Positions 11,947 to 29,050 of a stretch of DNA of 64,000 bases are shown in pieces. The notes beneath the pieces were generated by a model that was not told the origin of the DNA, did not search any database, and saw nothing but the letters and a program-made list of their open reading frames with translations. Location of the stretch: contig CAMHLV010000005.1 of assembly GCA_946186115.1 (NCBI GenBank), positions 30,729 through 94,728 on the forward strand. Reading direction: 5' to 3'. The stretch is from an uncultured Prevotella sp. GTDB lineage: Bacteria; Bacteroidota; Bacteroidia; Bacteroidales; Bacteroidaceae. Position numbers and translations under genes: made by a program. How positions within the stretch are numbered: the first letter of the stretch is position 1; every line of letters starts with the position of its first letter.

Positions 11947-13188
11947 TTATAGTTTGATACGTAAGGCCTGCTTGATATCTTCGAGCAGGTCGCTCTTGTC
12001 TTCCAGGCCTATGCTGAGGCGGACCGTCGTATCAGGAACGGACATCTCGGCGCACTGCTCGGGGGTGAAGAGCCCAAAGATGGTCGAGGCAGGATGGATG
12101 GCCAGCGACTTACGATCGAAGAGGTTGGTGGCACGACGGATTACCTGCAAGTTGTCGATAAACGCCCAGGCGGCTTCCTTCGATTCGAGATCGATGGTGA
12201 AAACGGCTCCAGGCAACTGACCGAATTGTCGTGTTGAGAGCTCGTAGAAGGGATTATCCTCCAAGCCAGTATAGTTGACGCGCTTGATTTCGGGCAACTC
12301 TCGACACTGCTGGGCAAGCCAAAGCGTAGTCTCTGCCTGACGACGGAAACGGATATCGAGCGTGTCGAGACCCAGCGTTTCCATATAGGCTGCCTGCGGC
12401 ATCATCAGCGAGCCGAGGTTTGTTATCAACTCAGTCTTTACACGAGCTGTAAAGGCCAGTTTCTTCCCCACCCTCTTGGTACGAGCCTGCAACACTGGCG
12501 ATGGATGCTGTGACCAGTCATAGCGTCCGTAGTCTATGAGCAGACCGCCCAGTCCGGTGCCTCCGCCGGAGATATATTTTGTGCTGCTGACCACCTCTAT
12601 ATCCACGCCCAACTCATTGGCATGGAAAGTAGAGAACGGCACGATGGTTGTATCGGCTATCAGGGGCACTCCTTTACGATGGGCAATCTCTGACAGCACC
12701 TTGATGTCGGCTACAAACAGCTGCGGATTGGTGATAATCTCAAAAAACAAGGCGCATGTCTTATCGTCTATCTGGGCCTCTACCTCCTCGGTCTTTGTGA
12801 AATCCGCAAAACGGACTTCCACACTGAATGCACCAAGCGTGTCACGAAGAAGCGAGACGCTGTTGCCAAACAAATGCTTCGAGGCTACGATGTTCAGTCC
12901 TGCACCACTCACGGCCGTCAGGGCATAGTGGATAGCTGCCATACCCGTGTTGAGCGCTGTCACGCTCTGTGCACCAGTTATCTGTCTGACACGCTCTTCC
13001 AAATAAGTCACCGTAGGGTTGGCGATACGAGCATACGACGGTGCCATTGAGCGACCGCAAAAGGCGTCGCTCATAGCCTTGGCATCGGGGAACTCGAATG
13101 CCGCCGTGTAATACACCGGCATCGAGAGAGCCCCGTATGCGTCAGGTTTCTGATACTTTGTGGTTAATACTTTTGTTTCGTAATTCAT
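11947..13188 (-). CDS. metY: O-acetylhomoserine sulfhydrylase-like PLP enzyme (MetY type)
   Basis: A 413-residue Cys/Met-metabolism PLP enzyme. Signatures are SMPVYYTAAFEFPDAKAM, YARIANPTVTYLEERV, and the PLP lysine in SSTKYISGGGTGLGG, with SVRLSIGLED at the end. MetY-type enzymes replace the acetyl of O-acetylhomoserine with a sulfur nucleophile to form homocysteine. I start at the ATG of MNYETKV; the ORF-track start is a GTG inside a repeat of ATTATGAATT words. It lies 30 bases downstream of the desulfurase in the encapsulin operon. With a sulfur-carrier protein, E1 and JAMM protease nearby, the likely donor is a protein thiocarboxylate, as described for MetY in Wolinella. It could alternatively use an acylserine. 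Confidence 0.9.
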   Translation of the reverse strand: MNYETKVLTTKYQKPDAYGALSMPVYYTAAFEFPDAKAMSDAFCGRSMAPSYARIANPTVTYLEERVRQITGAQSVTALNTGMAAIHYALTAVSGAGLNIVASKHLFGNSVSLLRDTLGAFSVEVRFADFTKTEEVEAQIDDKTCALFFEIITNPQLFVADIKVLSEIAHRKGVPLIADTTIVPFSTFHANELGVDIEVVSSTKYISGGGTGLGGLLIDYGRYDWSQHPSPVLQARTKRVGKKLAFTARVKTELITNLGSLMMPQAAYMETLGLDTLDIRFRRQAETTLWLAQQCRELPEIKRVNYTGLEDNPFYELSTRQFGQLPGAVFTIDLESKEAAWAFIDNLQVIRRATNLFDRKSLAIHPASTIFGLFTPEQCAEMSVPDTTVRLSIGLEDKSDLLEDIKQALRIKL

Positions 13189-13216
13189 AATGCATAATTC
13201 ATAATGCACAATGCAT
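13188..13216. repeat. ATTATGAATT word repeat at metY start
   Basis: CATAATGCATAATTCATAAT-type words fill the desulfurase-metY spacer and supply several overlapping ATG/GTG triplets on the minus strand. Only one ATG is in frame and followed by conserved sequence. Confidence 0.5.
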
Positions 13217-13218
13217 GA

Positions 13219-14727
13219 TTAGCTGCGCTGGCCCACGATCTTGCGCACGGCAATCACGAGTTTATCCACATCTTCGCGGGTGTTGTAGAGAGCGAAGGTA
13301 GGACGTACGCTCATCTCGTAGCCGAGAGCTCGGAGGGCGGGCTGAGCGCAGTGGTGACCGGCACGCACTGCGATGCCCTCCTTATCTAACAACGTACCTG
13401 TTTCGGGAACGGGGATGCTGTCGAGGACGAAACTCACTACCGACACGCGGTTCTTGGGGTCGCCAATAAGTGTGAGACCTGGAATCTGGGCCAGTTGCTC
13501 GCGGGCATACTCTGTCAGTTTGTGCTCGTGGGCCTCGATGTTACGGATGCCGAGATGACTCACGTAGTCGAGGGCAGCACCCAGTCCGATGGCGTCGGCC
13601 ACATTGGGCGTACCAGCCTCAAAGCGTGCAGGAGGCACATTATACTCCGTGCGCTCGATGGTCACGTCCTTAATCATGTTACCACCACCCTGCCAGGGCT
13701 GCATCTTGTCGAGGATGTCCTTGCGTCCATACACCACACCGATGCCGTTGGGACCATAGATCTTATGACCAGAGAAGACGAAGAAGTCGGCTCCTAACTG
13801 CTGCACATCGACAGGCGTGTGGGCAATCGACTGTGCACCGTCAATCAACACGGGGATGTTGTGCGAGTGTGCGATATCGATAATACGCTTCACGTCGTTG
13901 ATAGTGCCGAAGGTGTTGTTCACATGACCCACGCTAACGAAGCGGGTACGCGGCGTGATGATGCGCTCAAACTCTGACAGTATCAAGTCGCCGTTCTTAT
14001 CCGTTGGGATAGCCTTCAGCGTAGCCCCCCTTTCGTGGGCCACCTGCTGCCAGGGCACGATGTTGGCGTGATGATCCAGTTCGCTGACGATGACTTCGTC
14101 GCCAGGAGTCAGGAATTGCCTGCCGTAAGTCTGTGCCACAAGGTTGATACCCTCAGTGGTTCCTCGCACGAAGATGATCTCCTCGCTGCTGCCGGCATTG
14201 ATGAAGCGTTGCACCTTTTCGCGCGCTTCCTCATAGGCATCAGTAGCACGTGCTGCCAAGGTGTGGGCACCGCGATGGATGTTCGAATTATAAGTTTTGT
14301 AGTAATCCGAAATCTTGTCGATCACCTGTATCGGCTTCTGGGTGGTAGCACCGTTGTCGAGCCATACCAGGTCGTGGCCGTTCACCTTCTGTTGGAGCAC
14401 AGGAAAATCCTTTTTGATCTCCTCCGAGTTCAGTGTATCCACCTCCTCGTAGTGCAGGCTCTGCAGTTTCTCGGTCTCAGGGATACCGATGCCGAAGCCA
14501 TTGTCTGCCGGCACGATAGGCGAGGTGCCCTGTCCCGTAGGATGCGACTCTGTCGCATTGAACAGGACCGCCAACGACGAGAGGTCTAACTGCTCATCAG
14601 GAATCACCGCCTTTCGCTCGTCCTGCAACTCTTCAGGGCAGTACTTTTGTGCCACCTGCCGCAACAGTTCGAAGCCAGGATCTTGGATGCCGTAACCGCC
14701 TATATTTTGTATATTTATCATACGCAT
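13219..14727 (-). CDS. Cysteine desulfurase with N-terminal extension, probable encapsulin cargo
   Basis: A 502-residue class V aminotransferase of the SufS type, releasing sulfur from cysteine as an enzyme persulfide. From about residue 103 it is a normal SufS: IKKDFPVLQQKVNGHDLVWLDNGATTQKP, the PLP lysine Lys322 in FSGHKIYGPNG and the persulfide cysteine Cys460 in AGHHCAQP. The first ~100 residues (MRMINIQNIGGYGIQDPGFELL...) are extra, poorly structured and rich in Gly, Pro and acidic residues. Desulfurases encoded next to family 2 encapsulins carry such extensions as cargo-loading sequences. The gene is 49 bases downstream of the shell gene, so encapsulation is a strong inference. TusA-like and DsrE-like acceptors lie in the same operon. 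Confidence 0.93.
   Translation of the reverse strand: MRMINIQNIGGYGIQDPGFELLRQVAQKYCPEELQDERKAVIPDEQLDLSSLAVLFNATESHPTGQGTSPIVPADNGFGIGIPETEKLQSLHYEEVDTLNSEEIKKDFPVLQQKVNGHDLVWLDNGATTQKPIQVIDKISDYYKTYNSNIHRGAHTLAARATDAYEEAREKVQRFINAGSSEEIIFVRGTTEGINLVAQTYGRQFLTPGDEVIVSELDHHANIVPWQQVAHERGATLKAIPTDKNGDLILSEFERIITPRTRFVSVGHVNNTFGTINDVKRIIDIAHSHNIPVLIDGAQSIAHTPVDVQQLGADFFVFSGHKIYGPNGIGVVYGRKDILDKMQPWQGGGNMIKDVTIERTEYNVPPARFEAGTPNVADAIGLGAALDYVSHLGIRNIEAHEHKLTEYAREQLAQIPGLTLIGDPKNRVSVVSFVLDSIPVPETGTLLDKEGIAVRAGHHCAQPALRALGYEMSVRPTFALYNTREDVDKLVIAVRKIVGQRS
14021..14036. repeat. G/C-run 16-mer inside desulfurase gene
   Basis: GTAGCCCCCCTTTCGT is identical to the dapF insertion at 10305-10320. On the minus strand it encodes ERGAT using an AGG codon. 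No length change of the protein is obvious here. Confidence 0.4.
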
Positions 14728-14776: not shown

Positions 14777-16216
14777 TTACTTCTCTACTTTGTTCCTATG
14801 CTGATAATCGTGATAGTAGCCTACTTCCACGTTCTCAAGTACGGCGATAGCGTCGTCGGTGAGGGCTGCTAATGAGAAGTATTTCGTGAGCAGGTACGAA
14901 GCCACGCCAAACTTGTCAAGGCCCATCAGACGAGCTGACAGCGACGGAGCAATCTCACCGGGGATACCACTCTGATGGAGTCCTACTACACCCTGGTTCT
15001 GTTCGCCGGTACGCACGAGGATAATCTTCGTCGTGCCTACGCCGCGACCTGTCAGGTACTGGCCTTCCACCTCTACCTTATCCGATGGAATCAGGGGCAC
15101 GCCGCGCCACAGTACAACTTTCGTGCCGAAGAGGTCGGTGGTCACAGGAGGCACACCGCGCCATGTGCACTCACGCTCGAAGGCGGCGATGGCACGGGGA
15201 TTGGCCACGAAGAATGCCGGCTCCTTCCATACCAGCGACAGCAATTCATCGAGATCGTCGGGTGTCGGCGAGCCATAGCGTGCCGAGATGCGATATGCGG
15301 GGTTGGCAGCAGCCAGCAGACCGAACTTCTTATTGTTTATCAGTTCCCACTCCTGGCGCTCCTTGATGCTCTCTATCGACAGGCGCAGCTGCTCTTCCAG
15401 CTGGTTATAGGGGTTATTATAGAGGTCGCTGACGCGGGTGTGCACACGGACAACCGTCTGCAGGGTGTTGAGCGAGTATTCTGTGGGATTCTCCTCGTAG
15501 TCGATGTATGTCTCAGGAATGATGTTATCCTCCTCGTGGCCGCTTACCAGGTCGATGTGCTTCTCGCCATTGTCGTTGACCGAGGCCTTCAGGCGCAGTT
15601 GCTTGTCAACGGCCTTATTAAAGGTCTCGCGGAAGTCGGGCACTTCTTTAATGAACTTCACCAGTTCCTTCAGCTTCAGGCCGAGGAACACTGTGGGAGT
15701 GATAGCACGGACGCTAACCGTTGACTCCTGCTCGTCCAGCAGGTCGGCCTCGCCAAAATACTCACCGTCGCCCAAGAGAGCAATCCGTAGTTCCTCGCCA
15801 TGTGAGCCACGGCTGATAACCTCTGCCTGACCGGAAGCAACTATAAAGAAGCGCTGCTTGTCTTTGCCCTCCTCAACGAAGAGTTTGTCAACATCCACTT
15901 CCTGTGTCTCAAACGAGCTAACCAGTCGGTTCAGAATCTCGTCGTCAAACTCAGAGAACAGAGGGATGGCCTTGAGGTTCTTGGCTGTGAACGAGGGCTT
16001 TCCATCTACGTATTGTATCGGCAGACGGTCGTTCTTGCGTAGTTCAACTTTAGTACGATTAACGCGGAATGTACCGCCACTAACCTGTACCCAAGGGAGC
16101 AACTTGAGGAGTAATCTCGGAGTGATTGAGCCCATCTGTGGGGCGGTCTTGGTGGTGGTCGCCAGTCTTCTGGCGGTAGCAGTGGTCACACTGCGCTGAA
16201 GATTAGAATCTGCCAT
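14777..16216 (-). CDS. Family 2 encapsulin shell protein with inserted cyclic-nucleotide-binding-like domain
   Basis: A 479-residue protein. Residues 1-80 are an N-terminal arm. Residues ~82-195 (IPLFSEFDDEILNRL ... GDGEYFGEADLLDEQESTVSVRA) form a cNMP-binding-like beta-roll. From ~230 to the end it is the HK97-type shell domain of the SrpI/family 2 encapsulins (YSLNTLQTVVRVHTRVSDLY, GIPGEIAPSLSARLMG, YLLTKYFSLAALTDDAIAVLENVEVG). Such proteins self-assemble into icosahedral protein compartments; the cNMP-domain layout corresponds to family 2B. In the phosphate-binding cassette the arginine expected before the VxA strand is replaced (STVSVRA), so classical cAMP binding is doubtful. It heads the shell-cargo-metY genes and follows tusA and dsrE genes. 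Older databases may call it a Crp-like or membrane protein. Confidence 0.92.
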   Translation of the reverse strand: MADSNLQRSVTTATARRLATTTKTAPQMGSITPRLLLKLLPWVQVSGGTFRVNRTKVELRKNDRLPIQYVDGKPSFTAKNLKAIPLFSEFDDEILNRLVSSFETQEVDVDKLFVEEGKDKQRFFIVASGQAEVISRGSHGEELRIALLGDGEYFGEADLLDEQESTVSVRAITPTVFLGLKLKELVKFIKEVPDFRETFNKAVDKQLRLKASVNDNGEKHIDLVSGHEEDNIIPETYIDYEENPTEYSLNTLQTVVRVHTRVSDLYNNPYNQLEEQLRLSIESIKERQEWELINNKKFGLLAAANPAYRISARYGSPTPDDLDELLSLVWKEPAFFVANPRAIAAFERECTWRGVPPVTTDLFGTKVVLWRGVPLIPSDKVEVEGQYLTGRGVGTTKIILVRTGEQNQGVVGLHQSGIPGEIAPSLSARLMGLDKFGVASYLLTKYFSLAALTDDAIAVLENVEVGYYHDYQHRNKVEK

Positions 16217-16267: not shown

Positions 16268-16489
16268 CTATTTCTTAATTGTCACGCGATGCGTGGTGCC
16301 TTCTACGTGCTCGACGGAGATAACGTTGTAACCCTGTTCCTTTGCGTTGCGGGGAACGTTGTCGAGAGGTTCGCCCTCGGCGAGGAGCACTTCCAGAATG
16401 TCGCCTTCGTTGAGTTTCGAAAGTTCAATCTTCGTCTTTACGAAAGTCATCGGGCAATGCTCTTTCGTAATGTCTAAAACCTTTTTCAT
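16268..16489 (-). CDS. TusA/SirA-like sulfurtransferase
   Basis: A 73-residue TusA-fold protein. Its active-site region is HCPMTFVKTKIEL, where the cysteine accepts persulfide sulfur from a desulfurase and passes it on; the usual second proline of CPxP is absent here (CPMT). The body GDILEVLLAEGEPLDNVPRNAKEQGYNVISVEH follows the family pattern. Being between the DsrE-like gene and the encapsulin gene, it probably shuttles sulfur released from, or destined for, the encapsulated desulfurase toward the ThiS-like carrier. Length is normal for the family. Confidence 0.9.
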   Translation of the reverse strand: MKKVLDITKEHCPMTFVKTKIELSKLNEGDILEVLLAEGEPLDNVPRNAKEQGYNVISVEHVEGTTHRVTIKK

Positions 16490-16623: not shown

Positions 16624-17103
16624 TCAGATAAACAATGTTTGTCCGCCTTCGCTCAAGTTGAGGAACGATGCCACACCAAGAACGTCCTTTACCTCGGGAA
16701 TAAAATCTTCCCTCTTGAGTCCCAGTACGTGCATCGCCATCTCACAAGCATAGAGATTTATGCCCAGGGCCTTGGCGGCCTCAACCAGTTCCTCCAGCGT
16801 AGCCACGTTGTTCTTCCTCATAAGGTATCGGAACAACTTGGGGCCTATACCGAAGAAATTAAAACGCGAGGTGGGTGTCACTTTCAGTCCGCCCATCATG
16901 AATCCGAAGATCTTGGTGAGCCAGTTGCCGCCCGTGAACGAGCGCCCCTGCTTTTTCTTGATAGCATCCAGTCCCCAGAAGGTAAAGAAGATGTTTACCT
17001 CATAGCCTACTGCTGCCGCGCCCGTACCTAATGTAAATACTGCCGTCAGCTTGTCGAAATCGCCACTAAAGGCGATGATACTTAATTTCTTTTGTTCTGC
17101 CAT
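16624..17103 (-). CDS. DsrE/DsrF-like sulfur-relay protein
   Basis: A 159-residue DsrE/F-type protein. The start LSIIAFSGDFDKLTAVFTLGTGAAAVGYEVNIFFTFWGL, the low-complexity middle with FGFMMGGLKVTPTSRFNFFG, and the Cys in LYACEMAMHVLGLKRED are typical of the DsrE-related family often paired with TusA. Such proteins bind or relay persulfide sulfur. A second possibility is a peroxiredoxin-like sulfane reductase role. It is the first gene of the minus-strand sulfur operon, directly downstream of a divergent promoter region, and precedes the TusA-like gene. Confidence 0.88.
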   Translation of the reverse strand: MAEQKKLSIIAFSGDFDKLTAVFTLGTGAAAVGYEVNIFFTFWGLDAIKKKQGRSFTGGNWLTKIFGFMMGGLKVTPTSRFNFFGIGPKLFRYLMRKNNVATLEELVEAAKALGINLYACEMAMHVLGLKREDFIPEVKDVLGVASFLNLSEGGQTLFI

Positions 17104-17129: not shown

Positions 17130-17137
17130 CAAAATTA
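17130..17137 (-). promoter_or_regulatory. -7 promoter box for dsrE-tusA-encapsulin-desulfurase-metY
   Basis: Minus strand reads TAATTTTG. Its centre is 58 bp from the centre of the dyad at 17183-17200, the same distance as the divergent box at 17246-17253. Confidence 0.7.
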
Positions 17138-17182
17138 GGGGGTTTTCACGACATAGACAATCGCCTGTTTATGGCATTTTGC

Positions 17183-17200
17183 ATACCCATGACATGGTAT
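17183..17200. promoter_or_regulatory. Dyad operator ATACC-N8-GGTAT of the sulfur cluster
   Basis: GCATACC CATGACAT GGTATGC is a perfect 7+7 dyad with an 8-bp spacer. It is placed symmetrically between the two divergent -7 boxes. Related sites lie at 20580-20597 and 23504-23521. The distance suggests an activator site near -66. Confidence 0.7.
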
Positions 17201-17245
17201 GCCATTTACCCTATATGAGGGATTGCGCCACATCAGGAAACTCCG

Positions 17246-17253
17246 TACCTTTG
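17246..17253 (+). promoter_or_regulatory. -7 promoter box for thiS-like operon
   Basis: TACCTTTG in the context CCGTACCTTTGCA, a context shared with the promoters at 20643 and 23544. Confidence 0.75.
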
Positions 17254-17276
17254 CAGCGTGATTTGATCACACAGCG

Positions 17277-17336
17277 AAGTCAGGCGGCGCCTCGGCAAAG
17301 AGAAAGCTCTCTGCGCTCGGCTTGCACTGACTTTTT
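17277..17336 (+). terminator. Attenuator-like hairpin in the leader of the thiS-like gene
   Basis: Outer stem AAGTCAG/CTGACTT with inner AGAG-AAAG-CTCT hairpin, ending in five T residues, located between the promoter and the ThiS-like start. It may be a leader terminator, or a mobile palindromic repeat: CGCTCGGCTT recurs near 63874. Confidence 0.45.
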
Positions 17337-17368
17337 CACCCGAAATCATTTTTTAAACCGACAGAATT

Positions 17369-17581
17369 ATGGCAAAGATTTATGTAAATGGAGACGCGCA
17401 GGAAGTTACTCTGCCTCTCAACATTAGTGAACTCATCAAGAATTTATTAGTTGAAAACCCCGAGATGGTCTCAGTCCAGGTGAACGAGGAGTTTGCCGAG
17501 CGTGACGACTGGGACAACATCCAGATTCAGGAAGGCGACAATGTGGACTTCCTCTATTTCATGGGTGGCGGAAGTCTTTAG
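17369..17581 (+). CDS. ThiS/MoaD-like sulfur-carrier protein with masked C-terminus
   Basis: A 70-residue beta-grasp protein, MAKIYVNGDAQEVTLPLNISELIKN..., ending DFLYFMGGGSL. ThiS/MoaD proteins must end in Gly-Gly to be adenylated and converted to a thiocarboxylate. Here Gly-Ser-Leu (or Ser-Leu) follows the diglycine, so the tail must first be trimmed. A JAMM protease two genes downstream can do this, as QbsD does for QbsE and the homologous protease does in the Wolinella homocysteine pathway. The E1-like gene lies between. I infer a carrier for homocysteine or cysteine synthesis with MetY, not thiamin or molybdopterin synthesis, for which no partners are present. Confidence 0.88.
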   Translation: MAKIYVNGDAQEVTLPLNISELIKNLLVENPEMVSVQVNEEFAERDDWDNIQIQEGDNVDFLYFMGGGSL

Positions 17582-17635: not shown

Positions 17636-18442
17636 ATGATAGATTTTTCTGAAGAACAGATACAGCGATACTCTCGCCACATACTGCTTAAGGATGTGGG
17701 TGTAGAAGGTCAAGAGAAGATAATGAACGCACGCGTGCTAGTGGTGGGAGCCGGTGGACTGGGAGCCCCCGTGAGTCTCTATCTTGCTGCAGCAGGAATT
17801 GGACGCATCGGTATCATTGATGCCGACGTAGTAGATTTGTCAAACTTGCAGCGCCAGGTAATCCACTTTACTAAGGATGTTGGAGTGCCAAAGGTAGAGA
17901 GTGCCAAGGAAAAGATTCTGGCCATCAACCCCGATGTAAAGGTTGACACCTACTATAAATTCCTTGATTCATCCAACGCACTCGACATTATCAGTGAGTA
18001 CGACTTCATTGTTGACGGTACCGACAATTTCCCAGTGAAGTTCCTCATCAACGATGCCTGCGTCATGGCTGGCAAGCCCTTCTCTCATGGAGGCATCCTG
18101 CGATTCAACGGCCAGACCTTCACACACCTGCCTGGCACGGCATGCTACCGCTGCATGTTCAAGGAGCCACCTCCCGTTGGAGCCGTCCCCACTTGTTCGC
18201 AAGCAGGAGTGCTGGGTGCTATTGCCGGCATGCTGGGTACTATCCAGGCTGCTGAAACGCTGAAATACTTTACCGGTATAGGTGAGTTGCTTACCAACCG
18301 CCTGCTGACATTCGATGCCAAGACCATGCAGTTCCGCACTGTACCTGTAAGACACCGCGACAACTGTGCCATCTGTGGCGAGCATCCCACCATCGATCAT
18401 CTCATCGACTACGAGCAAGCCGCTTGCGACTTGAAACATTAA
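17636..18442 (+). CDS. ThiF/MoeB-like E1 adenylyltransferase
   Basis: A 268-residue E1-like enzyme that adenylates the C-terminal glycine of the sulfur carrier so that sulfur can be added. It opens with the MoeB-type RYSRHILLKDVGVEGQEKI, followed by the nucleotide-binding VVGAGGLGAPVSLYLAAAGIG, IIDADVVDLSNLQRQV, and a zinc site made of CYRC and CAIC. The mid-part DGTDNFPVKFLINDACVM carries the catalytic aspartate region. No rhodanese domain is fused, so sulfur probably comes from the TusA/DsrE relay. It lies 54 bases after the carrier gene and 30 before the JAMM gene. Confidence 0.93.
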   Translation: MIDFSEEQIQRYSRHILLKDVGVEGQEKIMNARVLVVGAGGLGAPVSLYLAAAGIGRIGIIDADVVDLSNLQRQVIHFTKDVGVPKVESAKEKILAINPDVKVDTYYKFLDSSNALDIISEYDFIVDGTDNFPVKFLINDACVMAGKPFSHGGILRFNGQTFTHLPGTACYRCMFKEPPPVGAVPTCSQAGVLGAIAGMLGTIQAAETLKYFTGIGELLTNRLLTFDAKTMQFRTVPVRHRDNCAICGEHPTIDHLIDYEQAACDLKH

Positions 18443-18472
18443 ACAATAAACAATAATCAATTAGCATTGAGA

Positions 18473-18889
18473 ATGATAATTCCACAGAACATCATAGATG
18501 AATTGATTGAGCAGGCAGAAAAGGATGCACCCAACGAGTCGTGCGGCTATCTCTTGGGCATACTCTCCCCCTCAACGGGGGGAGACGGAGGGAGTCTCGT
18601 GACGGAGAACTACTGGATGGAGAACATCGACCACTCACCCGAGCATTTCTCGTTTGCGCCAAAAGATCAGTTTGCCGCTCTGAAATATGCCCGTAGCAAA
18701 GGTCTGAAGATACTGGCCAACTGGCACAGTCATCCAGCCTCGCCCTCACGCCCCTCGCAGGAAGACCTGCGCCTGGCCAACGACCCCACCATCCGCTATG
18801 CCATCCTCTCGCTGCTTGACGGACAACCGAAGCTTAACTCCTTCAAGATACTGAACGGCGAGGTGGTGGATAAGCAGACACACCTATAA
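18473..18889 (+). CDS. JAMM/Mov34 metalloprotease (sulfur-carrier processing)
   Basis: A 138-residue JAMM protease. The metal site is visible as the catalytic Glu in the N-terminal ESCGYLLG and the NWHSHPASPSRPSQEDL motif (H-x-H...S-x(2)-D type). In related clusters such enzymes cut residues after Gly-Gly from a sulfur carrier (QbsD) or release cysteine from a carrier adduct (Mec). The ORF-track start is a TTG; I prefer the ATG two codons later. An in-frame G/C-run repeat encodes LSPSTGGDGGSL between GYLLGI and VTENYW, in a loop next to the active-site helix. Last gene of the plus arm, followed by a strong terminator. Confidence 0.9.
   Translation: MIIPQNIIDELIEQAEKDAPNESCGYLLGILSPSTGGDGGSLVTENYWMENIDHSPEHFSFAPKDQFAALKYARSKGLKILANWHSHPASPSRPSQEDLRLANDPTIRYAILSLLDGQPKLNSFKILNGEVVDKQTHL
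18563..18600 (+). repeat. G/C-run repeat translated inside the JAMM gene
   Basis: CTCTCCCCCTCAACGGGGGG then AGACGGAGGGAG, encoding LSPSTGGDGGS. Same pattern as the tcdA insertion (LPSKGGDKGAG). Confidence 0.6.
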
Positions 18890-20579: not shown

Positions 20580-20597
20580 ATACTAAACGTTTGGTAT
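20580..20597. promoter_or_regulatory. Dyad operator ATACT-N8-GGTAT upstream of TonB receptor
   Basis: Same architecture as 17183-17200 with one mismatched base in the left arm. The centre lies 58 bp from the -7 box at 20643-20650. Confidence 0.6.
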
Positions 20598-20642
20598 GTA
20601 ATATGACGCAAAAAGGCGATTGCCGGTATATGGAAATCGCCG

Positions 20643-20650
20643 TACCTTTG
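20643..20650 (+). promoter_or_regulatory. -7 promoter box for TonB receptor
   Basis: TACCTTTG in the context CGCCGTACCTTTGCAGCG. Confidence 0.75.
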
Positions 20651-20694
20651 CAGCGGGTAAAGACATACCCTGTTACACGGATTAAACGAAGAAT

Positions 20695-22731
20695 ATGAAG
20701 AGAATAAACATAATAATAGGTATTCTGCTCCTGAATATTGGAGTAACCGAAGGAAAAGGATTGGAGGATAAGGATTCGACAGAGGTGACTACGCTTGACG
20801 GAAAGCGAATCTCGGAGGTAACGGTGTCTGCTCATAAGGCGGGCAGGGTGAAAATGAGTGGTCTTGCTAATACGGAAATGATTAACGCCAACGAACTGCT
20901 TCGTGCTGCCTGCTGTAATCTTGGAGAGAGTTTTACAACGAACCCTTCAGTTGATGTGAACTATGCTGATGCCGCCACTGGCGCACAACAAATCAAGTTG
21001 CTTGGGTTGAGTGGCACCTACGTTCAGATGTTAACGGAGAATATTCCTAATTATCGTGGAGCAGCTGCCCCCTTTTCGTTGGGTTATATCCCAGGGCCAT
21101 GGATGCAGAGCATCCAGGTCTCTAAGGGTGCATCGTCTGTAAAAAACGGCTATGAGTCTATTACCGGCCAGATTAACGTGGAATTTAAAAAACCCCAGGC
21201 TACGCCTTTTGCAGATGCGAACCTCTATTACAACTCAAAAGGTAAGCTGGAAGCGAATGTCGGAGCAAACTTACACCTTTCCAAAAGGTGGAGGACAGCC
21301 TTGCTGGGGCATTATGAGATACTAGACAAAAACCACGATGATAATGGTGACGGCTTTGCCGATCTGCCAAAAATCCGTCAAGGAGCACTCCAGAGTCGTT
21401 GGGCCTGGATGGGTGACCACTATGTGTTTCAGGCTTCAGTTAAGGGACTGAAGGAGCATCGCGAGGGCGGACAGGTTGGCCATCATGCAGCTAATAATAC
21501 TCATCCATATCTGATTGATATCACGAACGAACGATATGAAGCCTTTACAAAGAATGCTTATATCTTTGACAAGGAACGTGCGACAAATATCGCACTTATA
21601 TTATCCGGCTCACAACACCACGAAAATGCGGTGTATGGACACAAATTCTATAATACCGACCAGCGTAATGGCTATGCCTCGCTGATGTTCGAGAGTGATT
21701 TCGGTGAACATCACAATATTTCAACAGGTATCAGTCTGAACCATGATCTGTATGACCAACGCTATCGTTTGGAAAATACCATGAAAGGCGAAGAACTGAA
21801 AGAACGCGACGAAGAAACGACCCCCGGTGCCTATGTGCAGTACACTTACAAGTTGGGAGATAAGCTCACGGCGATGGGAGGCTTAAGATGGGACCACAGT
21901 AATATTTACGGCAGTTTCATCACACCCAGGATGCATCTCAAATATTCGCCCAATGATATCGTCACCCTTCGTGCAAGCGTAGGAAAAGGCTATCGTACTA
22001 ACCACGTGTTGGCGGAAAACAATTTCCTGTTAGCCAGTGGACGTCAGATCGTCATTGATCAGGACCTTGACCAGGAAGAGGCCTGGAATTACGGAATTAG
22101 TGCAGCCTTGAAGGTTCCGGTAGGAGAGAAGACCCTGGAGTTGAACGCAGAGTATTATTACACGAATTTCAATCATCAGTTGCTTGTCGACCTTGATACA
22201 GATCCGCACGCCGTTCACTTTACGAACCTTAATGGCGACAGTTATTCTCACACCTATCAGTTAGAGGCCACTTATCCTTTCTTCAAGGGATTTACATTGA
22301 CAGCCACTTATCGTAGAACGAATGTGAAGTCAACCTATAATGGTGAGTTACGAGAGAAACCTCTGACCAACAAGTATAAAGGATTGTTGACCGCTTCCTA
22401 TGCACCTGGTCTGGGAAAATGGCAATTCGATGTGACCTTGCAACTGAATGGTGGCGGAAGACTACCAACAGCTTATACGACTGCTGAAGGACTGCCCTCG
22501 TGGGACGAGCGCTATAAAGGATATGAACAGTTGAGCGCACAGGTAACCCGCTTCTTCCGTTACTGGAGCATCTATGCAGGAGGCGAGAATATTACAGGCT
22601 TCAAGCAGAAGAATCCGATTATTGGAGCTAACGACCCTTGGGGTCCGAACTTCGACTCAACGATGATCTGGGGACCCGTTCATGGAGCCATCTATTATAT
22701 AGGCGTGAGATTAAATTGGAACAAAATATAA
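20695..22731 (+). CDS. TonB-dependent outer membrane receptor
   Basis: A 678-residue TonB-dependent receptor: a signal peptide (MKRINIIIGILLLNIGV), then a plug domain (ISEVTVSAHKAGRVKMSGLANTEMINANELLRAACCNLGESF; QIKLLGLSGTYVQMLTENIPNYRG; KGASSVKNGYESITGQINVEF) and a 22-stranded barrel ending with an aromatic strand GAIYYIGVRLNWNKI. There is no N-terminal carboxypeptidase-like domain, so it is of the metal/vitamin-transporter size rather than a SusC. It precedes an exported double-HMA protein by 20 bases, suggesting a metal-related substrate such as copper. A histidine-rich loop (GHHAANNTHPY) fits that. The substrate is an inference. Confidence 0.9.
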   Translation: MKRINIIIGILLLNIGVTEGKGLEDKDSTEVTTLDGKRISEVTVSAHKAGRVKMSGLANTEMINANELLRAACCNLGESFTTNPSVDVNYADAATGAQQIKLLGLSGTYVQMLTENIPNYRGAAAPFSLGYIPGPWMQSIQVSKGASSVKNGYESITGQINVEFKKPQATPFADANLYYNSKGKLEANVGANLHLSKRWRTALLGHYEILDKNHDDNGDGFADLPKIRQGALQSRWAWMGDHYVFQASVKGLKEHREGGQVGHHAANNTHPYLIDITNERYEAFTKNAYIFDKERATNIALILSGSQHHENAVYGHKFYNTDQRNGYASLMFESDFGEHHNISTGISLNHDLYDQRYRLENTMKGEELKERDEETTPGAYVQYTYKLGDKLTAMGGLRWDHSNIYGSFITPRMHLKYSPNDIVTLRASVGKGYRTNHVLAENNFLLASGRQIVIDQDLDQEEAWNYGISAALKVPVGEKTLELNAEYYYTNFNHQLLVDLDTDPHAVHFTNLNGDSYSHTYQLEATYPFFKGFTLTATYRRTNVKSTYNGELREKPLTNKYKGLLTASYAPGLGKWQFDVTLQLNGGGRLPTAYTTAEGLPSWDERYKGYEQLSAQVTRFFRYWSIYAGGENITGFKQKNPIIGANDPWGPNFDSTMIWGPVHGAIYYIGVRLNWNKI

Positions 22732-22751
22732 ATTTATTAAAACCAAAGATT

Positions 22752-23417
22752 ATGAGAACAAAGTTATTATTCCTGAGTTTGGCTTTTGCAGCAGTATGCT
22801 CTGCCAAGGACATTAAGACAGTTGTATTGAACACTTCTCCTGAGATGCACTGTTCAAGTTGTGAGAACAAGATTAAGTCGAACCTGAAGTTCGAAAAAGG
22901 AATTAAGGACATTCAGACTGATCTGACTACCAAGACTGTAACCATTCAGTATGATGCTGACAAGACAAATGTTGAGAACATCATTGCAGGCTTCAAGAAG
23001 ATTAATTATGTAGCAACGGTTGCAGGTAATAATTCTGCAGCAGCAGCTCCTAAAGCAGAAAAGAAAGGTGGCTGCTGCGGCAGTGGCGGTTGCAAGTGCG
23101 GTTCAGCTAAAAAGCCAGAACAGGCCGAAGCTAAACCCGCGGAGAAGAAAGGATGTTGTTGCGGTTCAAAGAAAACAAATCCGGAAACAGCAGCCAACGA
23201 CGGTTCTGTAGTCAAGTTCAAGGCAAAACAGATGAGTTGTGGCGGTTGTGCGAATAAAGTAAAGAAATTGCTGACAGGTGTTGACGGAGTAAAAGATGTT
23301 GCCGTTAATCTGGAATCAAAGATTGTTACGGTCAGTTACGACAGCCAGAAAACGAATGCCGCAAAGATCCAGGACAGTTTCAAGCAAATAAACTATACGG
23401 TAGAGGAAGTCCATTAA
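22752..23417 (+). CDS. Exported protein with two HMA domains joined by a Cys-rich linker
   Basis: A 221-residue protein. I start at MRTKLLFLSLAFAAVCSAKD, a signal peptide; the ORF-track start lies inside the receptor gene. Two heavy-metal-associated domains follow: the first with MHCSSCENK (residues ~36-44), the second with MSCGGCANK (~155-163). Both have the CxxC copper/zinc-binding loop. Between them is a Lys/Ala-rich linker with GGCCGSGGCKCGS and KKGCCCGSKK, which looks like a metallothionein-type cysteine cluster. The combination suggests metal capture in the periplasm beneath the preceding TonB receptor, for detoxification or delivery. A terminator follows. Confidence 0.88.
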   Translation: MRTKLLFLSLAFAAVCSAKDIKTVVLNTSPEMHCSSCENKIKSNLKFEKGIKDIQTDLTTKTVTIQYDADKTNVENIIAGFKKINYVATVAGNNSAAAAPKAEKKGGCCGSGGCKCGSAKKPEQAEAKPAEKKGCCCGSKKTNPETAANDGSVVKFKAKQMSCGGCANKVKKLLTGVDGVKDVAVNLESKIVTVSYDSQKTNAAKIQDSFKQINYTVEEVH

Positions 23418-23441
23418 CAGCTTTCGGCTGTGAAGAAATGG

Positions 23442-23474
23442 GGGGCGGCTTCTATCTGAAGTCGCCCCTTATTA
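23442..23474 (+). terminator. Intrinsic terminator after the double-HMA gene
   Basis: GGGGCGGCTTC-TATCT-GAAGTCGCCCC, an 11-bp stem with one G-U pair, followed by TTATTA. Confidence 0.7.
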
Positions 23475-23503
23475 TGTGGAAATACCACGTTTATGTGAAA
23501 CGA

Positions 23504-23521
23504 ATACCCCCATGTCGGTAT
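23504..23521. promoter_or_regulatory. Dyad operator ATACC-N8-GGTAT upstream of SBP-like gene
   Basis: AATACC CCCATGTC GGTATT. Same arms and spacer length as the sulfur-cluster site. Its centre is 35 bp from the -7 box, that is 23 bp closer than at the other sites, about two helical turns. A weak half-site ATACC also lies at 23482-23486. Confidence 0.6.
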
Positions 23522-23543
23522 TGTGGATAAGCAGGGGACGCCG

Positions 23544-23551
23544 TACCTTTG
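23544..23551 (+). promoter_or_regulatory. -7 promoter box for SBP-SusCD operon
   Basis: TACCTTTG in the context CGCCGTACCTTTGCAC, 34 bases upstream of the start. Confidence 0.75.
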
Positions 23552-23577
23552 CACCAAGAAATTTAAATAGAGAAATT

Positions 23578-24483
23578 ATGAAATTAAAGATTGTTTTCAT
23601 TATATCATTTGTTGCAACAGTGTCTATGGCACAGGTTCACACTATCAGCACCCCGCGGTTTACCCGTCCGCTGGTTGAGAAGTGGGTAGAAGATTACAAG
23701 AAAGTCGCACCCAATGTACAATTACGGATATTAAAAGGTTGTGGCTGTATAGACGAGTCGGAACTGAGTGTCTTGCCATTTAAAGGAGATGTACAGGATG
23801 ATACCAATGTGATATTCTTTGCCAAGTATGCCATCCTGCCTTTTACGGCCACAGGGTCAGAGGCAGAGAAAATACTTAATAACAAGAAACTTAGTGGCAA
23901 GCGCCTGCGTAAGATTTTCTTCGAGCATGAGGACTATGCTACTGATGAAGAACTGACCAAACAGGAAAAGCGGCAGAAACAGCTTGTCGTTTATAGTGCG
24001 AACAATCCCGCCTCCTTATCAGAGCCGTTTGCCGGATTCTTCAACGAAGTGACTGAGAATTTGAGAGGCCGAAGAATTGCTGGCGATGATGCATTCTTGA
24101 CGTCAGCAGTAATAAAAGATCCCTATGGCGTGTCGTTTGGCACATTGTCCAACATCTTTAGTCTGGACAACCGTCTTCTGAAGAGTGGCATCTCCATCCC
24201 TTCGCTCGACACGAGAAAGGAATTGGAAGCTGGCCTCAAGGAGCCCATCTCACTCGATTCACTGATACCGTTGCTGGAACAGTATCCGGCAGAAGAGGTC
24301 CCCACGGGAATGGTTGGGATTGTATATAAAGGCTATAGTAAGGAAATTGACGATTTCTTGTCATGGGTCCTCACCTCAGGAAGGAATCACGTCCATAACT
24401 ATGGACTGCTGCAAATTGAACAAGAGTTGGCAGAAAGACAGACAACAAAAATAGAGGCTGTATATACAGCGCAAACAAAATAA
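23578..24483 (+). CDS. Periplasmic substrate-binding-like protein of a SusC/D operon
   Basis: A 301-residue exported protein (signal MKLKIVFIISFVATVSMAQ). The body resembles PstS/ModA-type binding proteins: FTRPLVEKWVEDYKKVAPNVQLRI, IFFAKYAILPFTATGSEA, LSGKRLRKIFFE, SEPFAGFFNEVTENLRGRRI and YGVSFGTLSNIF. No ABC permease or ATPase is nearby, so it may hand its ligand to another system or act as a sensor. GCGCIDESE near the N-terminus gives two cysteines close together. It is the first gene after a promoter with the shared dyad and is followed after 28 bases by SusC. The start is the ATG after AGAAATT, 102 bases inside the ORF-track frame. Ligand unknown. Confidence 0.75.
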   Translation: MKLKIVFIISFVATVSMAQVHTISTPRFTRPLVEKWVEDYKKVAPNVQLRILKGCGCIDESELSVLPFKGDVQDDTNVIFFAKYAILPFTATGSEAEKILNNKKLSGKRLRKIFFEHEDYATDEELTKQEKRQKQLVVYSANNPASLSEPFAGFFNEVTENLRGRRIAGDDAFLTSAVIKDPYGVSFGTLSNIFSLDNRLLKSGISIPSLDTRKELEAGLKEPISLDSLIPLLEQYPAEEVPTGMVGIVYKGYSKEIDDFLSWVLTSGRNHVHNYGLLQIEQELAERQTTKIEAVYTAQTK

Positions 24484-24511
24484 TATGATTAATATAATAA
24501 TTTGATTAGGT

Positions 24512-27500
24512 ATGAGAAAACGATTGTTTTTATTCGTGATTGCCCTTCTGACCATCTCATCTGGACTGAAGGCGCAGGTCATCACAGGAAAGGTTGTCAA
24601 TGCAGACCAGGAACCTTTGATTGGCGTAGTCGTTAAAGGAGGTAATAATAAAACAGGTGCTACAACTGATGCTGATGGCATTTTCAGCCTGAACCTTGGA
24701 AAAGGTGTGAAATACCCAATACAGGTGCAGATCAACTATGTGGGCTATGACCCTTACGATCTTGACATCTATGAGGAAACAGACAATGTGGGCACTATTG
24801 TCCTCCGTACGGAGCGTTTCTCACTTGATGGAGTTGTGGTGGTGGCTTATGGTTCACAGAAAAGGCGTGACCTGACAGGTGCTGTCAGTTCTGTGGATGG
24901 TAAAGAATTGCTGAAAAACCCCGTAACCAGTTTGGAACAGTCACTTGAAGGCAAATTGAGCGGTGTTCAAGTGACACAGGCAACAGGAGCCCCGGGAGGT
25001 GCCGTCAGCATTAATGTGCGCGGAACAAGTAGTATTTCTGCCGGCAACGAACCATTGTATGTGGTTGATGGTTTGCCCGTCGTTTCCAAGGATTTGTCTG
25101 ATATTGGCGGTTATCAGGGAAACTCTCTGAGTGGAATCGCAGATATCAATCCCAATGATATTGCCAGTGTAGAGGTGTTAAAGGATGCTTCAGCTGCAGC
25201 CCTTTATGGATCACGTGCATCTAATGGTGTCATACTGATCACCACAAAGAAAGGTGCAGCTGGACGTACAAAGGTGACACTCGACAGCTACGTGGGTTTC
25301 CAGAACCTACAGAAGAAGCTTCAGTTCCTAAATGCCTCTGAGTATGTGGCAGCCCGTAATGAGGCCATCGATAATTACAACACATCATTAGGTCTGACAG
25401 CTGCTGATGCAGCCTATAAGCAGCATGTGACAGCTGCCGTACCTGGTGCAGACACCAACTGGCTCGACGAGATTACCCACAATGGCCTACAGACGAGTCA
25501 CCAGCTGACCATCTCAGGCGGTAACGACCGTACACAGTTCTATGCATCAGGTGGCTACTACAAGCAAGATGGTGCCATCATCAACACCAGCTATGAGCGC
25601 TATAACCTGCGTACCAATATCGGGCATCAGCTGAACAAGCGCATCCATATCGATGCTAACATCGCATTAAGCACTTCTGACACATGGCGTGCTACGGGCG
25701 ATAACAACATCTATTCTCCGTGGAGAAATGCCCTTTTTGTGTCACCTGACTATCCTGTCTTTAACGAGAGTGGTGGCTACAGCAGTGTCAATACCGGTGC
25801 CAGGAATCCTGTCCAGCTGATTAAAGAGGAGCCGCAGCACTCAAAGAAATACCGTGCGTTGGTTAATCTGAAAGGCTCGTTGCAAATACTGCCCGACCTC
25901 TACTACCACCTGAATTTAGGTGGTGACTATAACATCCTGCACGAACTACAGGTATGGCCTTCAACCTCATTGCGGGGTTCGAGCGTCAATGGTGAAACAG
26001 TTGACGGACGCGCCTTTACCTTCACCAACCTGGCTGAGCACACCTTCGATTACAATCACACTTGGGACAAGTTCTCACTAAAGGCTCTGGCAGGATATAG
26101 CTACCAAAAAACGATCGTTGACAATGCTTATGTCGATGGTATTAACTTTGTATCACCCACTCTGATATATCTCGATTCTGCAGGTGAGATTACTTACGGT
26201 GGATCATACGTCGAGAAAAATGCCCTTCAATCGTTCTTTGCACGTGCAAACCTGAGCTATGCAGACCGTTACCTGCTCGAGCTTTCATTCCGCAGTGATG
26301 CTTCCTCGAAATTCTCACCCGACAACCGTGTCGGCTACTTCCCAGCAGCCTCTGCAGGTTGGCAAGTGTCGAAGGAGAAGTTCTGGAAGGAGAACAAGGC
26401 CATCAACGACCTGAAGTTGCGTGCCAGCATTGGCTACACGGGTAATCAGGAAGGTATTGGCAACTATGAGTACCATCAGACGTATTCTGCCAGCAGTATC
26501 AAATACAACGGTAACTCAGGCTACGGTTTCCCCACATATAAGCCCAATCCTGACCTTTCTTGGGAAAAGACGCTCCAGTATGATTTAGGTTTTGACGCCG
26601 TATTGTTAAACCGCCGCATTGAACTTATCTTCGACTGGTATAAAAAGGATACCCACGACCTGTTGCTGACGCACAGTATCAATTCACTGAGTGGATATAG
26701 CAGCACTACTTCAAACGTTGGTAATATCACAAATACAGGTGTGGAAGTGGGTATTACTACCCACAACCTGACGGGTGCCCTGAAGTGGGACAGCCACCTG
26801 AACTTCACTTATGCCAAGAACGAAGTGACAGGACTTGTGAAAAATGCCGAAGGCGAGGAGCCTTACATCACTACAGGTTTCTGTAACATCCTACAGGTGG
26901 GAGAGCCGATGGCGGCGTTCTACTTAATCCAAGCCGATGGCATCTTCCAGTCGAAGGAAGAGATTCTGGCACAGCCTGGTGGGCAGACACTTTGGGACAA
27001 GGGAATTCGCCCAGGCGATGTGAAGTATTACGACAAGAATGCAGACGGAGTCATCAACTCAGAAGACCGCGTCATCAGTGGTTCACCTTTCCCAAAAATC
27101 TTCGGTGCATTCTCCAACAACTTCAGCTACAAGGGCTTTGACCTGAGTCTCGACTTGCAGTACTCATTAGGTGCCAAACTATATGCCGCATGGAAGTATT
27201 CGGGTTTAGGCAACCAAGGTGGCCATACAAATGGCTATACCATCCTGAAATCAGAGTGGGATGACCGCTGGACAGAGAGTAACCCATCAAACGACACACC
27301 ACGTGCAGTGGCTTACGGCGCAGCCTACACCAACAACAACATCAACTATACCACGCGCTACTTGGAGAATGCTGATTACTTGAAGATCCGCAACCTATCC
27401 ATAGGTTACACTCTACCCGCAGCCATCACCAAACAGCTGGGAATCAGCCGCCTGCGCTTCTATGCAACCGCACATAACCTCTATACCTTCAGCAGTTATG

Positions 27501-27616
27501 ACGGCTTCGACCCCGAGGTAGCCATGTTCCCCAGCCGCACCACCTATCGTGGCTATGACTCAGGTTCCGTACCACAACTCCGCTCATATGTATTTGGCTT
27601 TAATTTGACATTCTAA
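24512..27616 (+). CDS. SusC/RagA-family TonB-linked outer membrane transporter
   Basis: A 1034-residue SusC-type protein. After the signal peptide come the carboxypeptidase-like beta-sandwich (VITGKVVNADQEPLIGVVVKGGNNKTGATTDADGIFSLN), the FSLDGVVVVAYGSQKRRDLTGAVSSV TonB-box region and the plug with NVRGTSSISAGNEPLYVVDGLPV and EVLKDASAAALYGSRASNGVILITTKKG. The barrel ends SYVFGFNLTF. It forms the outer membrane channel closed by the lipoprotein SusD encoded next. The usual glycoside hydrolases of a polysaccharide locus are missing here; instead the operon holds a binding protein and a metalloprotease, pointing to a peptide, protein or metal-complex ligand. Confidence 0.96.
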   Translation: MRKRLFLFVIALLTISSGLKAQVITGKVVNADQEPLIGVVVKGGNNKTGATTDADGIFSLNLGKGVKYPIQVQINYVGYDPYDLDIYEETDNVGTIVLRTERFSLDGVVVVAYGSQKRRDLTGAVSSVDGKELLKNPVTSLEQSLEGKLSGVQVTQATGAPGGAVSINVRGTSSISAGNEPLYVVDGLPVVSKDLSDIGGYQGNSLSGIADINPNDIASVEVLKDASAAALYGSRASNGVILITTKKGAAGRTKVTLDSYVGFQNLQKKLQFLNASEYVAARNEAIDNYNTSLGLTAADAAYKQHVTAAVPGADTNWLDEITHNGLQTSHQLTISGGNDRTQFYASGGYYKQDGAIINTSYERYNLRTNIGHQLNKRIHIDANIALSTSDTWRATGDNNIYSPWRNALFVSPDYPVFNESGGYSSVNTGARNPVQLIKEEPQHSKKYRALVNLKGSLQILPDLYYHLNLGGDYNILHELQVWPSTSLRGSSVNGETVDGRAFTFTNLAEHTFDYNHTWDKFSLKALAGYSYQKTIVDNAYVDGINFVSPTLIYLDSAGEITYGGSYVEKNALQSFFARANLSYADRYLLELSFRSDASSKFSPDNRVGYFPAASAGWQVSKEKFWKENKAINDLKLRASIGYTGNQEGIGNYEYHQTYSASSIKYNGNSGYGFPTYKPNPDLSWEKTLQYDLGFDAVLLNRRIELIFDWYKKDTHDLLLTHSINSLSGYSSTTSNVGNITNTGVEVGITTHNLTGALKWDSHLNFTYAKNEVTGLVKNAEGEEPYITTGFCNILQVGEPMAAFYLIQADGIFQSKEEILAQPGGQTLWDKGIRPGDVKYYDKNADGVINSEDRVISGSPFPKIFGAFSNNFSYKGFDLSLDLQYSLGAKLYAAWKYSGLGNQGGHTNGYTILKSEWDDRWTESNPSNDTPRAVAYGAAYTNNNINYTTRYLENADYLKIRNLSIGYTLPAAITKQLGISRLRFYATAHNLYTFSSYDGFDPEVAMFPSRTTYRGYDSGSVPQLRSYVFGFNLTF

Positions 27617-27634
27617 AAAAAGGAGAATATAGTT

Positions 27635-29050
27635 ATGAATAAGAAGAATATTATCATTTCATTGACATCGCTGGCACTCACTGCCTGCAACCTGGACTAT
27701 TATCCCACCACGGCAGTCAGCGACAGTTCGCTCACGGAAGCCGATTATACCAATCTGCTCACCGGTGTCTATGATGGCGCACAGAGTATTAAAATCAATA
27801 TTGACGATATTGCAGCGGACAACCTCACCAGTCCTGGCTGGTGGCCAGATATCGACAACAACGGACAGACCGCCAGCACCAGCAGTGATATCAACTCACT
27901 GTGGAACAGTCACTACAAATACGTGCAGTTGGCCAATAACCTCATCAACCTCATAGAGCACACAGGATCTCCAACACCTGCCCAAATAGAGATAGAGGCT
28001 CAGGCTCGTGTCATCCGTGCATGGCTCTATGCCCGAATAGCTCAGCACTGGGGCGATGCTCCCCTGCTATTGGAGGTCACCGACGAATTAGTTGGTCGCG
28101 ACCCGGAGATAGAGATATGGAAACAGGTTATTGCCGATCTGGAATATGGCGTACAAAACGCCCCCGACTTCACTGACAGGGGCTATGTCAGCAAAGTAGC
28201 TGCAAAGGCACTTCTGGCACGAACCCTACTTACCGGTCCCTCTGCCGTGCAGGACAAAACCCGAGCCCAACAGCTCGCTGAAGAGATTATCGCATCAGGG
28301 AAATTTAGTCTGGCTGCCAACTTTGCCGACATATGGCATGCTAAATCCTCGAATGAGATCATCCTGCAATGGACGAACCTGAATGGTGACTCAGGCTCTG
28401 ATGGCTGGTTCATGCGTTCCGACATCGTCAATCTCTATGAGGCCGAGAATGGCAGTGGTTCAGCCGGTTATGGTGAACAGGGACGATATGAGAACCACGT
28501 GGATCTGGCTGCTTTCGATGCCTTCGAGGAAGGTGACCTCAGAAAAGCTCCCACCGTGCGTCATCTGAAGTTGGCAAGTGGTGCTGAGACTTGGGACTGT
28601 GTGAAATACCCCAGCTATAATGAAGCTGACCCCTGGCCTGTTATTCGCATTGCAGAACTTTACCTGATTTCTGCTGAGGCACAAGGCTATCCTGCAGGTG
28701 TCGATCGTCTGAACCAACTGCGTGTGGTACGCGGATTAAAGGCCCTGAATGCTGGCTCTGACATTACAGCCGATAACTTTATCGACCGTATCATGGCCGA
28801 GCGTCGCGTAGAATTCTATGCTGAAGGACATCGCTGGTACGACTTGCGTCGCTGGTTCAACTCTGGTGAGGCTGGAAAGAAGGCTGTGCTGTCCTTCCGC
28901 AAGTATCAGCCGGGTGAAGCGGCTGGAAGTCGTCCACAGGCATCAGAGACGATGCAGATTGCAGATGACGGTCACAACCTGCTTTGGCCTGTTCCACAGA
29001 CCGCCATTGATAACGACCCCAATCTGTTGCCACAGAATCCTGGTTATTAA
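27635..29050 (+). CDS. SusD/RagB-family surface lipoprotein
   Basis: A 471-residue SusD-like lipoprotein. The lipobox is LTAC at the end of the signal peptide, followed by NLDYYPTTAVSDSSLTEADY. The TPR-rich domain includes ARVIRAWLYARIAQHWGDAPLLLEV; near the C-terminus, RIMAERRVEFYAEGHRWYDLRRW is the family hallmark, and NDPNLLPQNPGY ends it. It caps the SusC channel and binds the ligand at the cell surface. Gap to susC 18 bases, to the metalloprotease gene 31. Confidence 0.96.
   Translation: MNKKNIIISLTSLALTACNLDYYPTTAVSDSSLTEADYTNLLTGVYDGAQSIKINIDDIAADNLTSPGWWPDIDNNGQTASTSSDINSLWNSHYKYVQLANNLINLIEHTGSPTPAQIEIEAQARVIRAWLYARIAQHWGDAPLLLEVTDELVGRDPEIEIWKQVIADLEYGVQNAPDFTDRGYVSKVAAKALLARTLLTGPSAVQDKTRAQQLAEEIIASGKFSLAANFADIWHAKSSNEIILQWTNLNGDSGSDGWFMRSDIVNLYEAENGSGSAGYGEQGRYENHVDLAAFDAFEEGDLRKAPTVRHLKLASGAETWDCVKYPSYNEADPWPVIRIAELYLISAEAQGYPAGVDRLNQLRVVRGLKALNAGSDITADNFIDRIMAERRVEFYAEGHRWYDLRRWFNSGEAGKKAVLSFRKYQPGEAAGSRPQASETMQIADDGHNLLWPVPQTAIDNDPNLLPQNPGY

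Follow-up and report, generated by a model that had tools for sequence, protein, structure and literature searches.

A putative NarL/LuxR-type operator shared by two divergent sulfur operons of an uncultured Prevotella, and its predicted regulator

Coordinated control of sulfur assimilation is exerted by CysB, a LysR-family protein, in enterobacteria, by CymR in Bacillus, by McbR and CysR in Corynebacterium, and by CysR in Synechococcus. These regulators do the same job as the candidate described below; they differ from it in protein family and operator, and none is of the NarL type. Searches of open-access papers for a published regulator that governs cysteine/methionine assimilation in Bacteroidales, for any named sulfur regulator from that order, and for a NarL-type sulfur regulator gave nothing. 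What is already known, besides the sulfur regulators of other families, is the NarL-type proteins and their 7-2-7 sites: NarL binds TACCCCTAAAGGGGTA, which has the geometry TACC-N8-GGTA (PMC4549865). Family 2 encapsulins with cysteine desulfurase cargo are known as well (PMC8346489, PMC8049743), among them the Synechococcus SrpI encapsulin, which is induced by sulfur starvation and is also encoded on a sulfur-regulated plasmid (PMC8049743). PMC5764234 cites the thiocarboxylate-dependent methionine pathway of Wolinella succinogenes.

We analysed a 64,000-nucleotide stretch of DNA from an uncultured Prevotella sp. (the window), in which two divergent groups of genes face each other (Table 1). 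A preliminary description had regarded both arms as a sulfur cluster, and sulfur genes were indeed found in each. The shell protein has an internal cNMP domain (PF00027) and scores above the NCBIfam cut-off, as expected for a family 2B encapsulin. The desulfurase passes the SufS subfamily cut-off; with the family 2A encapsulin cargo model NF041166 it scored 717.1 bits, below the curated cut-off of 800. The gene set of the thiocarboxylate methionine pathway is complete (ThiS-like carrier, ThiF-type enzyme, JAB protease, and MetY). We presume that it corresponds to the thiocarboxylate-dependent homocysteine pathway of Wolinella, in which HcyS, HcyF, HcyD, and MetY likewise comprise a ThiS-like carrier with residues after the GG, a MoeB-like enzyme, a JAB protease, and MetY. 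The set in the window departs from the W. succinogenes pathway in its coupling to DsrE2, TusA, and a cysteine desulfurase that is probably encapsulin cargo, all roles being predicted from the genes, and the cluster looks like a thiocarboxylate-dependent homocysteine pathway that would be fed by the encapsulated desulfurase. The locus resembles known family 2 encapsulins in pairing a cNMP-domain shell with a SufS-type desulfurase (family 2B in the scheme of PMC8346489) and differs from them in that the operon adds DsrE2, TusA, and MetY and lies opposite a thiocarboxylate operon across a common operator.

The preliminary description had placed a dyad, GCATACC-N8-GGTATGC, with its centre at 17191.5, 58 bp from each of two divergent -7 boxes. 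When we re-read the window sequence, the dyad (GCATACCCATGACATGGTATGC) and its centre were exact, and the distance was 58.0 bp on both sides (58.5 bp when the 9-mer TAnnTTTGC is used as the box, as in our scripts). Both arms carry TTG-N20-TAnnTTTG, as expected of sigma-ABfr promoters, whose consensus is TAnnTTTG at -7 with a TTTG-type box at -33 (PMC7366714). With positions given relative to a start that presumes a -7 box centred near -7, the full promoter layout is TACC-N8-GGTA (~-65), a weaker dyad 23 bp nearer the start (~-42), TTG (-33), N20, and TAnnTTTG. Three dyads 23 bp apart thus occupy the gap between the two -33 boxes, and of each promoter's two dyads only the distal one, in the centre, is common to both arms. 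The core of this central dyad consists of two inverted TACC-type heptamers with a 2-bp gap, as in NarL-type 7-2-7 operators. The -33 boxes, the proximal dyad of each promoter, and the promoter copy at 20581-20650 are additions to the preliminary description.

Table 1. Features of the divergent sulfur cluster and of related promoters, in window coordinates.
Feature	Position	Strand	Remarks
Shared distal dyad GCATACC-N8-GGTATGC	17181-17202, centre 17191.5	.	~-65 for both promoters
Distal dyad core TACCCAT-GA-CATGGTA	17184-17199		Inverted heptamer pair with a 2-bp gap, as in NarL 7-2-7 sites
-7 box TAATTTTG	17130-17137, centre 17133.5	-	sigma-ABfr type
-7 box TACCTTTG	17246-17253, centre 17249.5	+	
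-33 box TTG, minus promoter	17158-17160	-	20 bp from TAATTTTG
-33 box TTG, plus promoter	17223-17225	+	20 bp from TACCTTTG
Proximal weaker dyad ATGCC-N8-GCGAT, minus promoter	17160-17177, centre 17168.5	-	~-42, overlaps -33 box
Proximal weaker dyad TTACC-N8-GGGAT, plus promoter	17206-17223, centre 17214.5	+	~-42, overlaps -33 box
Complete putative regulated promoter, dsrE-tusA-encapsulin-cyD-metY arm	17130-17199	-	Distal dyad to -7 box, 81.4 bits
Complete putative regulated promoter, hcyS-hcyF-hcyD arm	17184-17253	+	68.3 bits
Third promoter copy	20581-20650	+	78.8 bits; before TonB receptor gene 20695-22731
Variant promoter	23482-23551	+	5.8 bits; degenerate distal dyad, strong proximal AATACC-N8-GGTATT, -7 box TACCTTTG
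MetY-like O-acetylhomoserine sulfhydrylase	11947-13209	-	PF01053
SufS-type cysteine desulfurase, probable encapsulin cargo	13219-14727	-	
Family 2 encapsulin shell with cNMP domain	14777-16216	-	encap_f2b 561.8 bits, cut-off 400
TusA/YedF-like sulfurtransferase	16268-16489	-	PF01206
DsrE2-like sulfur carrier	16624-17103	-	PF13686
ThiS-like sulfur carrier ending MGGGSL (HcyS-like)	17369-17581	+	
MoeB/ThiF-like activating enzyme (HcyF-like)	17636-18442	+	
Prok-JAB metalloprotease (HcyD-like)	18467-18889	+	

GCATACC-N8-GGTATGC has no second copy within the window, where 0.18 chance matches to it would be expected at up to 2 mismatches. In the whole genome there was one exact copy, and 14 more places matched with 1-2 mismatches, none of which fitted the extended promoter pattern. 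The exact 14-base dyad was therefore dropped as a regulon probe, having a single genome copy and weaker matches that were not promoter-like; TACC-N8-GGTA plus the -33/-7 pattern was adopted instead. Since 64 kb should by chance hold about 4 dyads that combine 7-bp arms with an 8-bp spacer, whatever their sequence (64000/4^7), we regard the dyad taken alone as without significance, and its significance as coming from the comparative data.

The motif played no part in the choice of loci for this comparison: a search with the shell protein retrieved 80 encapsulin loci of other genomes, and the genes in them were placed by tblastn. All 29 loci with divergent hcyS and dsrE had the dyad at no more than 2 mismatches, so that no loss was seen in relatives that keep the divergent cluster. 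The -7 boxes stood at the window's distance from the dyad in these loci, with the exception of one (L050) in which the dsrE-side box is lost. In two loci where hcyS is relocated (L030 and L031), the dsrE and hcyS promoters each have their own copy of the dyad at an unchanged distance. The 58-bp spacing is kept both in divergent relatives and at one-sided promoters. Cultured carriers of the site include Prevotella sp. khp7, Xylanibacter ruminicola D31d, and Segatella baroniae B14.

Spacing was then counted over the encapsulin loci plus the window (1.25 Mb), which contain 189 nonredundant oriented TACC-N8-GGTA sites. At 96 of them a TAnnTTTG box lay at exactly the window's distance and at 10 it lay one bp closer, compared with at most 4 at any other distance. 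Spacers N5, N6, N7, N9, N10, and N11 and six control dyads each gave a total of 0, 1, or 2 boxes; among spacers N5 to N11, only N8 was position-locked to -7 boxes. Judged by these comparisons, the conservation of the dyad in relatives is not due to chance.

The loci also differed in gene order. In L027, L040, L041, L043, L044, and others, at least three arrangements of the cluster were seen. It may be divergent like that of the window, it may be split, or it may form a single long operon in which hcyS-hcyF-hcyD follow the gene for the desulfurase; in this operon form, the metY nearby is a 52-57% identical one that lies upstream.

A position weight matrix built from 54 sites less than 80% alike gave the consensus ATACCaaa..t.tGGTATGcgaaaTgCCa..a.tg.GgGATTGTggg..tg..gAaAtCgCCgTAcCTTTGCAcCc, with four conserved blocks: the distal dyad, a weaker ATNCC-N8-GNNAT dyad whose right half extends into the -33 TTG, the TTG itself, and TAnnTTTGC. 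In the window it recovered the four promoters of Table 1, and all scores in the remaining window and in a reversed control were below -36. In other families of the order the proximal dyad is cleaner (e.g., ATACC-N8-GGTAT then AATACC-N8-GGTATT).

The site is not confined to the divergent pair. The variant promoter at 23482-23551 precedes a periplasmic-protein gene (ORF 23476-24483; its true start is probably further in). Elsewhere in the same genome, cysK (C10:34702) is preceded by the pattern, and an ATP-grasp gene (C4:75789) by a weak form of it; run backwards as a control, the pattern gave no sites in the genome. The genes that recur downstream of the site in relatives are cysK, metY, dsrE-encapsulin, hcyS, TonB receptors, and PstS-like periplasmic proteins, to which more distant families add a cysJ-like reductase, OsmC-like, and DUF2061-like proteins (names given by eye, except for the genes tested with Pfam). 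Judged by these comparisons, the genes behind the site form a sulfur regulon.

Two of the regulon promoters stand before a cluster at 20581-29050 of the window that encodes a TonB receptor, a two-domain HMA protein with a Cys-rich linker, a periplasmic protein, and a SusC/SusD pair. Given the two promoters, this cluster may import a sulfur source or a metal for sulfur metabolism. Another locus of the same genome (L097 5806-9896, G000:C4) has a weak regulon site in front of a gene pair for an ATP-grasp protein and an esterase, and the divergent gene encodes a TonB receptor similar to that at 20695.

A structured leader of ~87 nt (17252-17341) begins right at the plus -7 box, before hcyS. At E up to 1, no riboswitch or other known RNA in Rfam matched the region. 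Instead of this element, most relatives carry a leader of 25 nt, and similar elements follow -7 boxes of dsrE (L054, L118), metY (L108), and unrelated genes (L025, L097, L068). We rejected this leader as a part of the switch because most relatives lack it and elements like it lie behind the -7 boxes of unrelated genes; it looks like a dispersed Prevotella leader element.

The regulator acting at the site is most likely a 213-residue protein of the NarL/LuxR type that is encoded beside metY2 and cysK (G000:C10:33797-34435). Its gene lies immediately before the cysK site, which in this genome falls between the regulator gene and cysK. The C-terminus contains a GerE/LuxR HTH (PF00196, 49.7 bits, cut-off 23.5). 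An 87% identical orthologue was modelled with AlphaFold (28 sequences, pLDDT 85.7); the model has a receiver-like N-terminus, and Foldseek matched it to LiaR (E 5e-11), VraR (8e-11), and RcsB (3e-9), as well as to NarL; a Pfam search of the candidate did not report a Response_reg domain.

Regulator and site tend to occur together. Fisher tests, whose p-values are inflated by shared ancestry, gave p=4e-27 for 249 congeneric species (130 with both, 29 with the regulator only, 12 with the site only, 78 with neither), p=7.5e-8 for the genomes at least 98% complete (35, 5, 2, and 15), and p=2e-7 for 198 genomes of the order (10, 14, 5, and 169). The 29 regulator-bearing congeners (out of 159) counted as lacking the site did so at the stringency used. 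The site lies directly before the candidate's own gene in seven species (G011, G030, G035, G173, G186, G191, and G209). Most close relatives have the candidate next to metY or cysK, and in several other families its neighbour is cysK; even in a family whose regulator is only 38% identical, the site is found before cysK beside the regulator gene. Of the 80 encapsulin loci, 36 contain the candidate, often as a neighbour of metY.

Twelve species have the site without a detected regulator, and two of these, G070 and G215, are at least 98% complete. Both are congeneric and have a strong site and no regulator homologue at E 1e-30; they may use a diverged or a different regulator.

The candidate and its sites share with NarL, LiaR, VraR, and RcsB, and with the 7-2-7 operators of NarL/NarP, the inverted heptamers TACCNNN-NN-NNNGGTA, a LuxR-type HTH, and a receiver-type fold. 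Unlike in that family, its predicted targets are genes of cysteine/methionine assimilation rather than of nitrate respiration or envelope stress, and its site lies in sigma-ABfr promoters with a strictly fixed double-dyad layout. It further differs in the receiver: 76 of 90 homologues have Asn at position 9, usually the second acidic residue, and no histidine kinase was seen among the ORFs adjoining the candidate gene in L096. Of the residues expected in a phosphorylation pocket, D8, D53, and K104 are kept in 90/90 homologues and S81 in 88/90. Given these conserved residues, the Asn at position 9, and the missing neighbouring kinase, the input to the candidate could be a distant kinase or a metabolite.

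What the comparisons establish is the operator with its fixed spacing and double dyad, the regulon behind it, and the tie to the candidate regulator; binding, activation, and a sulfur-limitation signal are what we infer. We consider it highly probable that the dyad is a shared operator at which NarL/LuxR-type dimers, formed by the 213-residue candidate, activate both arms and a wider sulfur regulon. The inverted heptamers, at about -65 for either start, would be bound by a homodimer, and the weaker dyad 23 bp (about two turns) nearer each start, against the -33 box, by a second one. One dimer on the common distal dyad plus one on each proximal dyad would then activate both promoters by recruiting the Bacteroidetes housekeeping RNA polymerase to the two TTG-N20-TAnnTTTG promoters. 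The carrier/encapsulin arm (dsrE-tusA-encapsulin-cysteine desulfurase-metY) and the thiocarboxylate arm (hcyS-hcyF-hcyD) would be co-induced, presumably by a shortage of cysteine or methionine, which is the obvious guess for the signal. The candidate would further control cysK, metY, a cysJ-like gene, transporters, and, in some species, itself.

One dimeric regulator for both arms, probably an activator acting near -66, had been suggested in the preliminary description. The conserved dyad and the fixed 58-bp spacing upstream of -33 support this idea, which we extend by a genome-wide regulon, two dyads per promoter, and a named candidate. We favour activation because the site keeps a single distance and phase upstream of -33: an activator would need such a fixed distance, with the helical phase unchanged at almost all promoters, and for a repressor it is unusual, which argues for the former. 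It could be speculated that the same NarL-type regulator uses the same operator to switch the genes off when sulfur is replete. The proximal dyad overlaps the -33 box, where a bound protein could block polymerase, and NarL itself represses some promoters (PMC4549865); however, repressor sites are usually variable in position and cover -33 to +20, whereas here the strongest part is the distal dyad, outside the core promoter and at one distance from the -7 box at nearly all promoters. We therefore find repression unlikely.

Another possibility is that the site belongs to a different LuxR-type or a LysR/Crp-type protein and that the NarL-type gene, so often adjoining cysK or metY, is only a member of the regulon. 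LysR-type promoters have a two-dyad layout similar to that at -65/-42, this genome encodes two further proteins with a LuxR-type HTH (GerE domain), and in the 12 species mentioned above the candidate was not detected beside the site. On the other hand, a search of this genome, which is 79% complete, for the LysR-type HTH (PF00126) gave no matches; genomes without the candidate have other LuxR-type genes yet seldom the site; genomes that lack the site likewise encode other LuxR-type proteins; and TACC-N8-GGTA is the known geometry of NarL. A different regulator thus seems quite improbable. Finally, dyads of such arm lengths are expected several times per window, but a coincidence of two unrelated promoters is refuted by the 29 conserved divergent loci and by the fixed spacing at ~100 promoters, with copies at other sulfur genes, and its probability is negligible.

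Within the preferred reading, activation by the 213-residue candidate, a bolder version may tentatively be entertained, although we would not presume it. The Bacteroidales counterpart of CysB could be a kinase-less NarL-type protein with a modified receiver, Asp-Asn in place of Asp-Asp, that is itself the sensor of a sulfur metabolite (O-acetylserine, O-acetylhomoserine, sulfide, or cysteine, for example) and turns on the encapsulin/thiocarboxylate sulfur economy through a three-dimer, two-way operator.

For Bacteroidales, which rank with the most abundant bacteria of gut and rumen, the outcome is a candidate regulator together with a precise operator rule (TACC-N8-GGTA at 58 bp from the -7 box). 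Among the predicted targets are new transport systems, a thiocarboxylate pathway to methionine, and an organelle of the encapsulin type. Membership in the regulon allows guesses at the functions of HMA proteins, TonB receptors, PstS-like proteins, and the ATP-grasp and esterase genes, and the physiological role of the encapsulin becomes testable.
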